NCBI RefSeq assembly: GCF_031456275.1
Contig: NZ_JAVDUI010000001.1
Location: forward strand, 806,001 to 870,000
Length of the DNA: 64,000 nt
Reading direction: 5' to 3'
Source: Falsarthrobacter nasiphocae
GTDB lineage: Bacteria > Actinomycetota > Actinomycetes > Actinomycetales > Micrococcaceae
Positions 15,919-43,744 of this stretch are shown in pieces. Every line of letters starts with the position of its first letter. Within the stretch, counting starts at the first letter, position 1. Made by a program: the position numbers and the translations under genes. The notes under the pieces were generated by a model. That model was not told the origin of the DNA. It made no database searches and saw only the letters and a list, made by a program, of their open reading frames with translations.

Positions 15919-16006
15919 GGAAGGTTGTCCGAGCGGCCTAAGGAGCTGGTCTTGAAAACCAGTGCGCGGTCACCCCGTGCCAAGGGTTCAAATCCCTTAC
16001 CTTCCG
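15919..16006 (+). tRNA. tRNA-Ser (anticodon TGA)
   Basis: A class II tRNA, 88 nt: acceptor GGAAGGT/ACCTTCC, anticodon stem CTGGT/ACCAG around CTTGAAA, a long variable arm with GCGCGG...CCGTGC-type pairing, and T-arm AGGGTTCAAATCCCT. CCA is not encoded (G then CGCG). A GATAAT-like -10 lies at about 15903-15908. No terminator separates it from the membrane glycosyltransferase frame that follows. Confidence 0.95.
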
Positions 16007-21525: not shown

Positions 21526-21614
21526 GGAGACGTGCCAGAGCGGCCGAATGGACTTCACTGCTAATGAAGGGTCCGGGGAAACTTGGACCGGGGGTTCAAA
21601 TCCCCCCGTCTCCG
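21526..21614 (+). tRNA. tRNA-Ser (anticodon GCT)
   Basis: A class II tRNA, 89 nt: acceptor GGAGACG/CGTCTCC, anticodon stem CTTCA/TGAAG around CTGCTAA, long variable arm with GGTCC...GGACC pairing, and T-arm GGGGGTTCAAATCCCCC. The discriminator G is followed by CC-G, so CCA is not encoded. Confidence 0.96.
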
Positions 21615-21620
21615 CCGAAC

Positions 21621-21657
21621 AGCCGGGCTCCCGTCATCGTGACGGGGGCCCGGCTTT
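21621..21657 (+). terminator. Terminator of tRNA-Ser(GCT)
   Basis: Stem AGCCGGGC pairing with GCCCGGCT, extended inside by TCCCGTCA/TGACGGGG, followed by TTT. It lies 7 bases after the tRNA. Confidence 0.85.
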
Positions 21658-30649: not shown

Positions 30650-31840
30650 ATGCTCTCGGCCACCAGCCGCCCCGTCATCGAGGCCACACTGCCCGTCATC
30701 GCAGCCCACATCGAGGACATCACCCCCGTGTTCTACGGAAAGATGTTCGCCGCACGCCCCGATCTCCTTGAGGGCACGTTCTCCCGGGCCAACCAGAAGA
30801 ACGGCACGCAGCCGCAGGCCCTGGCCGGGAGCATCGCGCGCTTCGCGACCTGGCTGCTCGAGAACCCGGACACCATGCCGGAAGAGCTCCTCGCGCGGAT
30901 CGCCCACAAGCACACCTCCCTCAACGTCCGGGCGGACGAGTACCCCACGGTGCATGAGCACCTCTTCGCCGCGATCGTCGAGGTCCTCGGCGACGCCGTG
31001 ACGCCCGAGGTCGCCGCGGCGTGGGACGAGGTGTACTGGCTCATGGCCGACGCCCTCATCAAGATGGAGAAGGGGCTCTACGAGGGCCTCTCCGCGGACG
31101 TCGGCTACACCCCATGGCGCATCGCCGAGATCACCGAGGAGACCGAGAGCGTCAAGACATTCCGCCTCGAGCCCGCCGACGACTCCGTGGCCACCCCCGG
31201 CCGCCCCGGCCAGTACGTCTCGGTGCGCCTCACCACGGAGGACGGCCTCCTCCAGGCCCGCCAGTTCTCGCTCTCGTGCAGCCCGGAGTCCACGGAGAAG
31301 CGCGTCATCACCGTGAAGCGGGATCAGGACGGGGAGATCTCCCCCGTCATGCACTCGCGCCTCGCGGTGGGAGACGTCATCGAGGTCTCCCCGCCCTTCG
31401 GCCTCAACGCCCTCCCCAGCGACGACGGCCGGCCGCTCGCCTTCATCACCGCGGGCATCGGCATCACGGTGACCTCCGCCGCGCTGTGCTCCCTCAAGCG
31501 GGCCGAGGACTCCCGCTCCATCCTCGCCGTCCACGCGGACAAGTCCTTCAGCACGGTGGCGCGGCTCGAGCCCGTGAAGCAGGCCATCGAGGCCCTGCCC
31601 AACGCGCGCGCGGAGTGGTTCCTGCGCGAGGAGACCGGCGCGGACCACAGGACGGACAAGGTCAACCTCGCCGAGCTCGGCGTGACGCCCGAGACCCACG
31701 TCTTCCTCTGTGGCCCGATGGCCTTCATGCAGGCCATGCGCGAACAGGCACTGGAGATCGGCGTGGCCCCGCAGGACATCCACTACGACGCGTTCGGCCC
31801 CGACATCTGGATGCCCGCCCCGGGCAACCCCGTTCAGTAG
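30650..31840 (+). CDS. hmp: Flavohemoglobin (nitric oxide dioxygenase)
   Basis: The protein detoxifies NO to nitrate using O2 and NAD(P)H. The 396-residue protein has three domains. The globin (1-140) contains distal Tyr29 in PVFYGKMF and proximal His88 in AHKHTSLNV. The FAD domain (about 150-250) has RPGQYVSV and ARQFSLS. The NAD domain has TAGIGITV and CGPMAFM. Length matches bacterial Hmp. It is preceded by its own promoter with two inverted repeats, and nsrR lies upstream; together they form a typical NO-stress module. A strong hairpin terminator follows at 31971. Confidence 0.96.
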   Translation: MLSATSRPVIEATLPVIAAHIEDITPVFYGKMFAARPDLLEGTFSRANQKNGTQPQALAGSIARFATWLLENPDTMPEELLARIAHKHTSLNVRADEYPTVHEHLFAAIVEVLGDAVTPEVAAAWDEVYWLMADALIKMEKGLYEGLSADVGYTPWRIAEITEETESVKTFRLEPADDSVATPGRPGQYVSVRLTTEDGLLQARQFSLSCSPESTEKRVITVKRDQDGEISPVMHSRLAVGDVIEVSPPFGLNALPSDDGRPLAFITAGIGITVTSAALCSLKRAEDSRSILAVHADKSFSTVARLEPVKQAIEALPNARAEWFLREETGADHRTDKVNLAELGVTPETHVFLCGPMAFMQAMREQALEIGVAPQDIHYDAFGPDIWMPAPGNPVQ

Positions 31841-31970
31841 CCCGCACCCTGAGCCCTACCGCGCCCGGTGAGGCCCGTGGACCGCTGCGGGCCCGCAGGG
31901 TCATTCGGGGGCTGCCGACAGGGTTCCCGCGAGACGACTGGCGGGGCCCCGCAGGGCGAATGACGCGACT

Positions 31971-32000
31971 CAGGCCCGGCACCGTGTGGTGCCGGGCCTG
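31971..32000. terminator. Hairpin terminator after hmp
   Basis: Perfect 13-bp stem (31971-31983 with 31988-32000), 4-base loop. The arm CTCAGGCCCGGCAC is the same as in the two repeat elements at 33382 and 34637, so this hairpin sequence occurs three times within 2.7 kb. Confidence 0.75.
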
Positions 32001-32072
32001 AGTTCCACCCTCGGACCGGGGACGGCGCGGGGGCGCCGCCTGAGGGAGTGCGACGCGTGTTGCGCACCCCTC

Positions 32073-32103
32073 GTCAGGGGCGCCCTTGGCAAGAGCCCCT
32101 GAC
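32073..32103 (-). terminator. Terminator of the 32-kb Tat protein gene
   Basis: Perfect 9-bp stem GTCAGGGGC (32073-32081) with GCCCCTGAC (32095-32103), 13-base loop, located 15 bases beyond the stop of the minus-strand gene. Confidence 0.65.
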
Positions 32104-32117
32104 GTGGACCCCAAGAA

Positions 32118-32786
32118 TCAGACGATGCTGCCCGGGACGCCCTGCGAGGTAACAAGGTACTTCACATCCGCGCCTCGCTGGCCCGCCCGAACCTTGGCAG
32201 TGTAGACACAGCCACCCTCGGGGATGGTCGCGACGTTCCTGCCGCTCAGGTTGCGGAACGAGAGAACGTAGGTGAGCTCAAAGGTCACCGGCTTGTTCCG
32301 ATACACGAACCCGACCACGGCGTTGGAGAACGGCGAGTTGTAGCCGAACTTGTAGTCCCTGAAGTTGGCGGCGAGGGTGGGGGACGCCGTCGAGCTGACC
32401 GCGAAGGGCTGGTCACCCGAGCTGGTCGTAATCCGGCCCGTGTAGGTCCGGCCCTGCTCCGTCGTGATGGAAATGGCCCTGGGAGTGATGAGCCAGTACG
32501 CCGTGTGGGGGCTGTACGTCACGCACCGCTGACGGTACGTGCCCAGGGTCCAGTTGAGCTGGAGCGAGCCGTCCGGAACCCGAGTGGCAGTCCACGACGG
32601 GGCCGAGCCCGGCGCGGCCACCAGGCACGGCAGCGCGGGGCATGTAACCTCGGGCCGGGGCTTCGAGTCTGGTACAGGCTTCGACGCGGCCGAAGCAGGC
32701 GCCGCCGAAGCGACAGCGATAGCCGGCAGGGCCCAGGATGCGCCCAGGGCGACCGATCGGCGGGAGATGGGGGTTTGTGAGGTCAT
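32118..32786 (-). CDS. Tat-exported secreted protein, function unknown
   Basis: The protein has 222 residues. The signal peptide ISRRSVALGASWALPAIAVA has Arg9-Arg10 and ends with an ASA-A site near residue 34. The mature protein is Ser/Thr/Tyr/Val-rich, predicted mostly beta, with four cysteines (TCPALPC near the start, RCVTY, GGCVYT) that may pair outside the cell. No anchor or enzyme motif is visible. ATG 32786 follows AAGGAGTC, a good ribosome site; the reading frame begins 18 bases earlier. Signal and composition resemble the secreted protein at 24.1 kb. It opens the accessory island. Confidence 0.75.
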   Translation of the reverse strand: MTSQTPISRRSVALGASWALPAIAVASAAPASAASKPVPDSKPRPEVTCPALPCLVAAPGSAPSWTATRVPDGSLQLNWTLGTYRQRCVTYSPHTAYWLITPRAISITTEQGRTYTGRITTSSGDQPFAVSSTASPTLAANFRDYKFGYNSPFSNAVVGFVYRNKPVTFELTYVLSFRNLSGRNVATIPEGGCVYTAKVRAGQRGADVKYLVTSQGVPGSIV

Positions 32787-32888
32787 CGAGACTCCTTCTG
32801 GCACAGAGGCAGGGATGGCCGAGTTGGCCCGAGCCCGAGTCGCCAGCGCGGGGGCACCAGCTGCCCGAAGGCTCCTTAAGTGTTTACC

Positions 32889-33047: not shown

Positions 33048-33368
33048 ATGAGCCTGATCCACGGATTCCTTCGCTACCTCGGCCTATCCCGAGACCCCTC
33101 CACCCAGGAGGCCACACCCACGCAGGCCCGTCCCACACGGCGGACAAAACTGCTCGCTGTCGTCGTTGGGCTAGGCGTCTTCGTCGTACTCTCGCTCGTA
33201 CCCCGCCAGGTGGACGCGCTTTCTGCCCTCGTCCCGTTGATCATGGCCATTCTCACCGCCAAGATCGCGCTGGGCACTACTCCTAACCCCCGGCCTTCGG
33301 GCAGCAGAACCTCGGAGCCCCCGTCTCCGCCCACGCCACGTCACTCCCCCACAAACCGCCCCTCATAG
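33048..33368 (+). CDS. Small two-helix membrane protein, island paralog 1
   Basis: This 106-residue protein starts with an amphipathic segment (LIHGFLRYLGLSRDP), then a basic linker (RPTRRTKLL), two hydrophobic helices (about 35-52 and 58-76) and a Pro/Ser-rich tail. ATG 33048 is preceded by a GGGGGTGGAG ribosome site. It is clearly homologous to the product at 33652-33954: FLRYLGLSRDP corresponds to VLRWLGLTRDP, and the helices align. Unlike the second copy it is followed directly by the 95-bp repeat with no secreted-protein gene. No known family is recognised; a membrane immunity or export helper role is only a hypothesis. Confidence 0.6.
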   Translation: MSLIHGFLRYLGLSRDPSTQEATPTQARPTRRTKLLAVVVGLGVFVVLSLVPRQVDALSALVPLIMAILTAKIALGTTPNPRPSGSRTSEPPSPPTPRHSPTNRPS

Positions 33369-33381
33369 GCACGCGGGGACA

Positions 33382-33476
33382 GCTCAGGCCCGGCACGCCA
33401 TTGTGCCGGGCCTGAGCCTTTGAGAGGTGCGCGTGATGAGGTGCGCACACGGTCCGCGCCTCGCGCGGGCCGATCC
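33382..33476. repeat. 95-bp direct repeat, copy 1
   Basis: Nearly identical (about 2-3 mismatches) to 34637-34731. It contains a perfect 15-bp stem (33382-33396 with 33403-33417, loop GCCATT) acting as terminator for the preceding gene, then GAGAGGTGCGCGTGATGAGG and a GTGCGCAC palindrome. A further hairpin follows at 33482-33502, also mirrored after copy 2. Confidence 0.9.
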
Positions 33477-33546
33477 GAGGGGTGACCCCAAGCTGGGGTT
33501 ACTCTCAACTCATCCTGAACTCAGACTGAGGATTTGATCACGAATA

Positions 33547-33552
33547 TATAAC
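33547..33552 (+). promoter_or_regulatory. Possible -10 of the paralog 2 operon
   Basis: TATAAC in the most A+T-rich stretch of the island (33531-33560), with the palindrome CTCAGACTGAG (33520-33530) at the -35 position. No good -35 consensus is seen, so an activator or repressor bound at the palindrome is possible. Confidence 0.35.
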
Positions 33553-33651
33553 AATCGGTCGCTATTTCCGAAAGACCCTTGCGCGCCAGCCCGATGAGCA
33601 GCATCCTGTTATTGCAATCACATGGACAACATTCCAGGGAGGTGACACGCC

Positions 33652-33954
33652 ATCGTCCTCCAGAGAGTCCTGCGCTGGCTTGGCCTGACGCGAGACCCAG
33701 CCGAACAGGAGACGGTTCAGGACGACGCCCACCCCACATGGCGGGCAAAGTTTCCCGTCCTGCTCCTAGGCTTCGCCGTCTACTTCATCGTGAGTCTCGT
33801 GCTCCGGGACGCAGGCGAGGCCTTCAAGGCGATTCCATGGGCCTCGGCCCTCCTCACCGTCACCATCATGATGCCTGAAGGGACTACCCGGTCCAGGCCA
33901 ACCGAAAGGAGATATCCGGATGATCAAACCGCCCACCAAGACGATCCTCACTAG
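33652..33954 (+). CDS. Small two-helix membrane protein, island paralog 2, apparent AUC start
   Basis: The frame from 33652 encodes 100 residues beginning IVLQRVLRWLGLTRDPAEQE, homologous throughout to the product of 33048-33368 (helices at about 33-50 and 57-75). No ATG, GTG or TTG exists between the in-frame stop TGA (33643-33645) and the conserved region. The codon ATC at 33652 lies 9 bases after GGAGG, inside an excellent AGGGAGGTGA ribosome site (33636-33645). The most economical reading is initiation at AUC; loss of the start codon is the alternative. The end overlaps the next gene by 35 bases. Confidence 0.55.
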   Translation: MVLQRVLRWLGLTRDPAEQETVQDDAHPTWRAKFPVLLLGFAVYFIVSLVLRDAGEAFKAIPWASALLTVTIMMPEGTTRSRPTERRYPDDQTAHQDDPH

Positions 33955-34564
33955 CACACTGCTCCTGGGGCTCGCCTTCACCACGCCCGCCGGCCACGCC
34001 TCCCAACCCCAGACGCCAGTAGACCTGGTCAGCACCACCCTTGCACTCAACAGTGAGTCGTCAGGACGCGATGCTGAGCTCTTCCAACCCTTTCCCGGAG
34101 ACCAGCGGTCCGCGGCCTCGCGATTGGGCGCGCATCTCGGCGCTGGAGTCAGCGAACGAATCACCACGGAGCAAGCGAAAGTCATCAGCGACGTGTTTGT
34201 CAGCAGTGGAAGGGCCGCCCTTCCCGACGGGACCGTTGCGCTCCGCCACCTAGACTCCGGGGACCTCGTGGCAGTTGATGCGCTGGGAACCCCGCTCGCG
34301 ACCTACCTGGAAGCAACGCTTTCCGCACGAGACACGGCCCTGCCAGAAACCGAAGATGACACACAAGCCGAGGGGATCATCCATCCCGAGGTCAAGCGCA
34401 TCATCGGGGCCTGCCTTGGCATCGGAGTCCCGGGGGCCATTAGCGCAGAGACAGTGATCCGATGGTTCAACACCCCCCAGAAGGCCGCCAAGTTCATCGT
34501 GCGGCGGCTCGGTGTCTTCGGAGCAATCAGCTGTGCCGGAGGAATCATCTGGGAGTACATCTAG
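33920..34564 (+). CDS. Secreted protein with hydrophobic C-terminus, function unknown
   Basis: The protein has 214 residues. A Sec signal peptide (TKTILTSTLLLGLAFTTPAG, cleavage near residue 27) is followed by an acidic, Ser/Thr-rich middle and a distinctive C-terminus (about 155-214). The last part contains IIGACLGIGVPGA, a basic amphipathic segment (NTPQKAAKFIVRRLG) and SCAGGIIWEYI, with two cysteines. A secreted precursor with a compact hydrophobic cationic tail is compatible with a bacteriocin or surface-active peptide, but no family is recognised. ATG 33920 follows GAAAGGAGA. It overlaps the end of the small membrane-protein gene, suggesting a two-gene operon ended by the repeat at 34637. 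Confidence 0.65.
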   Translation: MIKPPTKTILTSTLLLGLAFTTPAGHASQPQTPVDLVSTTLALNSESSGRDAELFQPFPGDQRSAASRLGAHLGAGVSERITTEQAKVISDVFVSSGRAALPDGTVALRHLDSGDLVAVDALGTPLATYLEATLSARDTALPETEDDTQAEGIIHPEVKRIIGACLGIGVPGAISAETVIRWFNTPQKAAKFIVRRLGVFGAISCAGGIIWEYI

Positions 34565-34636
34565 ATCCCTATCGACGCTCATGCGTCACGAGTTTCTCCA
34601 CCCACCCTGAGGCGGCAGGCGAAACGACAAGACACG

Positions 34637-34731
34637 GCTCAGGCCCGGCACGCCATTGTGCCGGGCCTGAGCCTTTGAGAGGTGCGCGTGATGAGGTGCG
34701 CACACGGTCCGCGCTGCGCGCGGGCCGATCC
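34637..34731. repeat. 95-bp direct repeat, copy 2
   Basis: Copy of 33382-33476, offset by 1255 bases. It begins with a perfect 16-bp stem (34636-34651 with 34658-34673) followed by TTT, serving as terminator of the secreted-protein gene. The second hairpin after it (34736-34758) differs in sequence from the one after copy 1 but is in the same place. Confidence 0.9.
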
Positions 34732-34735
34732 TAGA

Positions 34736-34758
34736 GGCGGCCCCAGAGCGGGGCCGCC
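34736..34758 (-). terminator. Terminator of pckG
   Basis: Perfect 9-bp stem GGCGGCCCC (34736-34744) with GGGGCCGCC (34750-34758), loop AGAGC, 9 bases from the pckG stop codon. Confidence 0.75.
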
Positions 34759-43649: not shown

Positions 43650-43737
43650 GGTGACGTGTCCGAGCGGCCGAAGGTGCAACACTCGAAATGTTGTGTACGG
43701 TAACCCCGTACCGAGGGTTCAAATCCCTCCGTCACCG
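43650..43737 (+). tRNA. tRNA-Ser (anticodon CGA)
   Basis: A class II tRNA, 88 nt: acceptor GGTGACG/CGTCACC, anticodon stem CAACA/TGTTG around CTCGAAA, long variable arm GTACGG...CCGTAC, T-arm GAGGGTTCAAATCCCTC. CCA is encoded (43738-43740). A TAGAGT -10 lies at 43634-43639. Confidence 0.96.
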
Positions 43738-43744
43738 CCACAGC

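Follow-up and report, generated by a model that had tools for sequence, protein, structure and literature searches.

The protease-activated antimicrobial peptide (PAMP) of Propionibacterium jensenii is described as a propeptide of 198 aa that is secreted, has a signal peptide of 27 aa and carries at its C-terminus the active part, which is released extracellularly (PMC5756557). Propionicin SM1, encoded by ppnA on plasmid pLME106, is described in the same source as a secreted protein of about 207 aa, also with a 27-aa signal peptide (PMC5756557). For the T6SS of Vibrio cholerae, new effector-immunity modules are reported to recombine in and old immunity genes to be kept (Kirchberger et al., 2017; PMC5361080), and homology-facilitated illegitimate recombination is proposed there for the arrays that result (PMC5361080). 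In the T7SS, strings of non-identical immunity paralogs (esaG/tipC) are described as recombining through similar blocks (Garrett et al., 2022; PMC9484751).

In this study, we analyzed a 64-kb stretch (64,000 nucleotides, hereafter the window) of the genome of Falsarthrobacter nasiphocae, which is assembled as one contig of 2,195,465 bp. The interval between an hmp-like gene and pckG holds two small membrane protein genes (P1 and P2), a gene for a secreted preproprotein and two copies (B and C) of a 95-bp direct repeat. We consider it somewhat probable that P2 and the secreted gene are a bacteriocin-immunity pair which recombined in at the pckG terminator, and that P1 is an orphan immunity gene from an earlier pair. 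As far as compared, the locus may work like PAMP, propionicin SM1 and the T6SS and T7SS immunity arrays. The likeness to PAMP, judged by description, lies in a secreted propeptide of which the C-terminal part is proposed to be active. The pLME106 record has a 207-aa gene followed by a gene for a small membrane-like protein, and we take the 207-aa gene to be ppnA. Propionicin SM1 would then resemble the locus of the window in its secreted protein and its small membrane-like partner, there on a small plasmid, but differs in being a DUF2599 protein without the two-Cys domain. Homology to the 207-aa protein of that record was considered and rejected, with E values of 0.053 for our profile A1 (over the signal peptide) and 0.74 for profile A3. 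In the T6SS orphan arrays, as far as the source describes them, effectors are injected by a secretion machine, whereas the window appears to encode a Sec-type secreted peptide and its duplicated flank is still visible. The recombining blocks described for esaG/tipC lie inside the immunity genes, whereas the repeat of the window is the terminator of a neighboring gene. From hmp (plus strand) to pckG (minus strand), the order is minus-strand gene, P1, copy B, P2, secreted gene and copy C, with the following features:

30650-31840, plus strand: hmp-like flavohaemoglobin gene (Pfam Globin, 5.8e-10; FAD_binding_6, 4.6e-6), convergent with and adjacent to pckG in three other genera
31967-32004 (about), no strand: hairpin A behind hmp, where the first hairpin of the repeat stands a third time, its 14-nt arms the same as in B and C
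32118-32804, minus strand: gene that apparently belongs to the cargo too; its 228-aa product has an RR signal-like N-terminus
33048-33368, plus strand: P1, small membrane protein of 106 aa with 2 TM, proposed orphan immunity gene (ATG start; profile A6, 1.2e-25; two helices in the model)
33382-33476, no strand: repeat copy B, three hairpins, duplicate of the pckG 3' terminator (93/95 identical to C; fold z -6.0)
33481-33503, no strand: fourth hairpin of copy B (offset as in C, sequence different)
33507-33637, plus strand: AT-rich stretch before P2 (47% GC against 71% for the window), probable promoter region
33652-33954, plus strand: P2, small membrane protein with 2 TM, proposed immunity protein of the pair (ATC start; Shine-Dalgarno sequence at 33636-33644; profile A6, 1.1e-26)
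33920-34564, plus strand: secreted preproprotein of 214 aa (ATG start; Shine-Dalgarno sequence at about 33908-33912; homologs; structure model)
34376-34561, plus strand: proposed active peptide, a conserved C-terminal domain of 62 residues in which Cys165 and Cys205 are invariant (alignments A3 and A5)
34637-34731, no strand: repeat copy C, home copy of the pckG terminator (pckG of G001 and G002 is followed by a like hairpin, loop AATGG(C/G); terminator-like on the minus strand)
34736-34758, no strand: fourth hairpin of copy C by folding, adjoining the pckG stop codon
34768-36678, minus strand: pckG, GTP-dependent PEP carboxykinase (Pfam PEPCK_GTP, 1e-165)

The hmp gene converges directly on pckG, at a distance of 104-181 nt, in 3 of the 18 other genomes checked at the pckG 3' end (L076, L077 and L081, from three genera), and an EamA transporter gene separates the two in G002, a member of the same genus. 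The claim of the sequence-only reading that terminators are kept while gene content varies agrees with these arrangements. Because hmp and pckG face each other directly in three other genera, the window genes between them look like inserted cargo; the ancestral order was presumably hmp-terminator-pckG, with all of these genes as later arrivals. One of them, the gene at 32118-32804, has an ortholog of 72% identity in G001 at an unrelated place, and its protein has no match in Pfam.

Copies B and C differ at 2 of 95 positions (98% identity) at an offset of 1255 bp. Direct repeats bound the membrane-gene and secreted-gene module, as the sequence-only reading had reported. Including the flanks, the similarity covers 112 nt at 94%. 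In a self-comparison, B and C are the only direct repeat above 90% identity in the window, and the whole genome holds two full copies; the recombination sites of integrons, with which the repeat was also compared, are shared by many cassettes and come with an integrase. Three matches to the 10-bp stem of the first hairpin (GGCCCGGCAC..GTGCCGGGCC) exist in the whole genome (window positions 31973, 33387 and 34642), all within 2.7 kb, and the same pattern read backwards has none. Both copies fold into the same row of four hairpins (z -6.0 for B and -6.8 for C against shuffles), and both mismatches fall in the loop of the third. The earlier reading also placed a second hairpin at the same position after each repeat; the offset of this element, the fourth in our fold, is indeed identical, but its sequence differs between the copies, as if one version had come from elsewhere. 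Not part of the sequence-only reading, like hairpin A, is the identity of the repeat, which is the 3' terminator of pckG, its convergent neighbor: in G001 and G002, the two other genomes of the genus, the pckG stop codon is followed by a like hairpin that shares the core and has AATGGC or AATGGG as its loop. In both genomes this terminator is single as far as visible, the G001 contig stopping just behind it. Copy C is about 73% identical over the aligned bases to the terminators of G001 and G002, with which the pckG DNA is 89% and 87% identical, respectively.

That the two membrane genes are paralogs was borne out by an alignment score of 130 for P1 and P2, against a mean of 26 and a maximum of 46 in 500 shuffles. 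Their protein identity is 33-37%, and the distance between them is about that of either to a homolog from another genus. Together with such a homolog (L017) they form one clade (support 87/84), inside which the branching order is unsettled; the proteins are short and few branches of the tree are well supported. The model of the small protein has two helices and a mean pLDDT of 63.1. P2 has a good Shine-Dalgarno sequence yet no in-frame ATG, GTG or TTG, the best start being ATC at 33652, which could also stem from a sequencing error; should translation of P2 be weak, protection may come mainly from P1. A consensus promoter scan of the AT-rich stretch upstream of P2 (33507-33637) found none. The stop codon of P1 lies 13 bp from copy B, a gap in which no trace of a secreted gene was visible. 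We found no near-identical effector pair matching P1, whose groupmates are P2 and L017, the latter with a broken secreted gene. An immunity-like gene without its own effector adjoins the intact pair of P2 and the secreted gene, and we read P1 as a putative orphan immunity gene.

The 5' end of the secreted gene overlaps the 3' end of P2 by 35 nt. The N-terminal part of its product, MIKPPTKTILTSTLLLGLAFTTPAGHAS, by eye resembles a signal peptide, as do the N-termini of its homologs; in addition to this start, the homologs share a pro-domain and the C-terminal 62-residue domain with its two invariant cysteines. In the structure model (mean pLDDT 61.7), a pro-domain at about residues 66-130 (pLDDT 85-93) is followed by a low-confidence linker at 133-152 and by a C-terminus that is helical at middling confidence. 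Such a linker between a well-folded pro-domain and a helical C-terminus in the model would fit processing. P1, P2 and the secreted protein had no family match in Pfam, NCBIfam or PHROGs, where single weak hits stayed below the cut-off. By sequence the best E value in the PDB was at least 1.9, and by fold, with a model that is weak outside the pro-domain, there was no match at E <= 0.001; no match by family, PDB or fold named a bacteriocin. The module was not seen as cargo among the viral contigs or phage sequences searched, and no description of the two-Cys secreted family was found in the open-licence literature.

Homologs of the secreted protein occurred in 12 of 395 genomes of the family (Micrococcaceae) and in a single one of 396 genomes drawn from the order, which was the genome of the window itself. 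A search of genome contigs with the C-terminal alignment placed them at nine named loci in several orders, against none in a scan with a single protein as query; the weak matches L018-L024 were left out as non-homologous by eye. One locus (L038:7643-8478) belongs to a mobilizable plasmid of 9,719 bp from a human-skin Corynebacterium tuberculostearicum, in which both module genes are annotated as hypothetical. The GC content of the module is below that of its surroundings in seven of nine loci compared, and not clearly so in L031 and L033. This patchy occurrence, the plasmid location and the low GC content argue for a bacteriocin-immunity cassette. A small membrane gene stands beside the secreted homolog at all 14 loci examined, which likewise counts for a bacteriocin-immunity pair. 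Twelve of these neighbors belong to the P1/P2 family, including a weak match on the plasmid (a 71-aa membrane protein with a profile match of 1e-5, the gene of which overlaps the secreted gene), and two encode a 4-TM protein (L031 and L032). The membrane gene lies upstream at most loci and downstream in L033. The secreted gene of L030 has no usual start codon. The small protein was matched in 38 of the 395 family genomes at E <= 0.001 and in 29 at E <= 1e-6; on the stricter threshold, which leaves out nine weak genomes, 9 of the 29 had a secreted match and 20 had none. An open small gene stands beside a secreted gene that is disrupted or reduced to a remnant at L014, L015, L017 and L048. Such one-sided decay, together with the small gene being alone in 20 of 29 genomes, argues for the pair and is the pattern of toxin and immunity genes, by which P1 would be an ordinary orphan immunity gene.

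The related loci were also screened by self-comparison for direct repeats of at least 45 bp and at least 85% identity, 0.3-7 kb apart. Repeats flank 4 of 11 loci whose secreted homolog is not known to be broken by a stop or frameshift (the set being the window, L025-L033 and L038, with an intact secreted gene or a homolog with another partner), namely the window, L026, L027 and, weakly, L033. Twenty further loci with a module, a fragment or an orphan (L095-L114) had none, and neither had 20 control stretches from the same genomes; these numbers are small, and the window itself was picked for its repeat. In Ornithinimicrobium laminariae (L026), the repeat comprises the 3' end of rplI and a spacer, and the copies enclose, at L026:6411-8058, a small membrane ORF and a seemingly frameshifted secreted ORF. 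This unit is non-homologous to the first unit at the DNA level and is absent from a sister species (L025), which is in line with the variation among relatives that had been predicted; relatives are not all alike, and the repeat of the window is confined to its locus and not widespread in the genome. Of the 23 differences private to the right copy in L026, 21 lie within the first 80 columns or so, which fits a spacer arriving with incoming DNA and a crossover inside rplI. In Arthrobacter sp. MYb229 (L027), a second copy of the 5' end of an lhr-like gene, with a deletion in it, lies on the far side of the module. To judge from the genes they match, the L026 and L027 repeats are host-gene ends and not transposon ends, and they have no sequence in common with the repeat of the window.

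The layout of the locus, the protein family, its conserved linkage, the match of the repeat to the pckG terminator and the age difference of paralogs and repeats are observations. Considering these results, we propose a model in which antibacterial activity, immunity, processing and crossover are all inferred from sequence. The 214-aa protein would be exported by Sec and would lose its pro-part extracellularly, by cleavage in the loose linker that precedes residue 153. The released C-terminal peptide of 62 residues, helical in the model, could then attack the membrane of related bacteria, with P2 in the membrane of the producer protecting it and P1 remaining as the immunity gene of an earlier pair. 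Incoming DNA with P2, the secreted gene and a related pckG terminator would have recombined with the resident terminator, either by a single crossover of a circle or by homology-facilitated illegitimate recombination of a linear piece with homology on one side. Either route would leave exactly one extra terminator copy, so that the pckG 3' region is present twice, as B and C. Copy B may insulate P1 from P2, and recombination between B and C would drop the newest unit and leave P1 as an immunity-only locus. The hmp-pckG interval shared by three genera, the 98% identity of B and C despite the earlier split of P1 and P2, and the scars at rplI (L026) and the lhr-like gene (L027) speak for an insertion. 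The lack of repeats at 7 of the 11 loci, the weakness of the L033 repeat and the different unit bounded by repeats in L026 count against it, and the start codon of P2 is odd for a sole immunity gene, though P1 could serve. A donor strain of the P2 and secreted-gene cassette was not found.

The sequence-only reading explained the arrangement by supposing that the small membrane gene, the secreted gene and the terminator were duplicated together in tandem and that the first secreted gene was then lost. We consider this unlikely, even with gene conversion to keep the repeats alike. It draws on the placement of P1 and P2 in one clade with L017 and on the agreement of the hairpin positions behind both copies, but equal ages of paralogs and repeats were not observed. 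P1 and P2 are as far apart as proteins from different genera, whereas B and C are far closer than the terminators are between species; therefore, unless gene conversion has acted, B and C must have arisen long after P1 and P2 diverged, which makes a simple tandem duplication improbable. The clean 13-bp gap behind P1 and the single terminators visible in G001 and G002 point the same way. Even less probable, in our judgment, is that the repeats serve expression alone, as a strong terminator working in both directions that was copied or retained, and have no bearing on gene gain. Stable four-hairpin elements do stand behind both plus-strand genes and pckG, and hairpin A stands behind hmp, but B and C are near-identical including loops and spacers and occur nowhere else in the genome, and the duplicated rplI and lhr flanks are coding sequence and not terminators. 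A transposon with target-site duplication was rejected, as there is no transposase-like ORF between B and C and the duplications, of 95, about 133 and 367 bp, are neither short nor fixed.

Somewhat more weight, though still clearly the lesser part, goes to a different function for the pair, in signaling or in the cell envelope, with the membrane protein helping to sense or process the secreted peptide. A secreted propeptide with a membrane protein would suit signaling as well, no bacteriocin family was matched, and the small protein is found alone so frequently that it may serve another purpose, which also counts against a role in immunity. The usual marks of toxin-immunity genes stand against this function, namely patchy spread, low GC content, a plasmid location, a secreted gene that decays first and a partner that switches between the 2-TM and 4-TM types at the same place. 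Returning to the bacteriocin-immunity pair, we tentatively raise a wider proposal, which is itself rather doubtful. An undescribed class of actinobacterial secreted bacteriocins might travel as bare, integrase-free bacteriocin-immunity cassettes that insert at conserved gene ends (pckG, rplI, lhr) by homologous recombination with a carried gene end; each arrival would duplicate the gene end, stack on older cassettes, leave orphan immunity genes and make the newest cassette able to loop out. If right, skin, nasal, plant and soil Actinobacteria would have a new family of antibacterial peptides that are secreted and paired with cognate immunity proteins, one absent from the protein-family libraries searched, and peptide-immunity pairs would have a route of gain, stacking and loss without integrases. 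The duplicated gene end would be the scar that makes this insertion process testable by strain comparison.

Several minor observations were made alongside. Three stretches of the window (15926-15997, 21526-21623 and 43650-43744), of 72-98 bp, are 73-78% alike. An Rfam match to Guanidine-III at 32045-32101 scored 18.8 bits against a cut-off of 36 and was rejected as a known RNA element. The first 40-70 residues of the 32118-32804 protein recur about ten times in the host genome, which makes it one of a small family of exported proteins in the genus. Three secreted homologs (L068, L069 and L071) form a more distant branch of the secreted family, with the C-terminus AGC..GG....CIAGAGG, and each is directly followed by a short hydrophobic ORF. 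A contig with the title Vibrio cholerae 35D (L029) carries the same module as G712, from the family of the window, and this record is probably mislabeled or contaminated.
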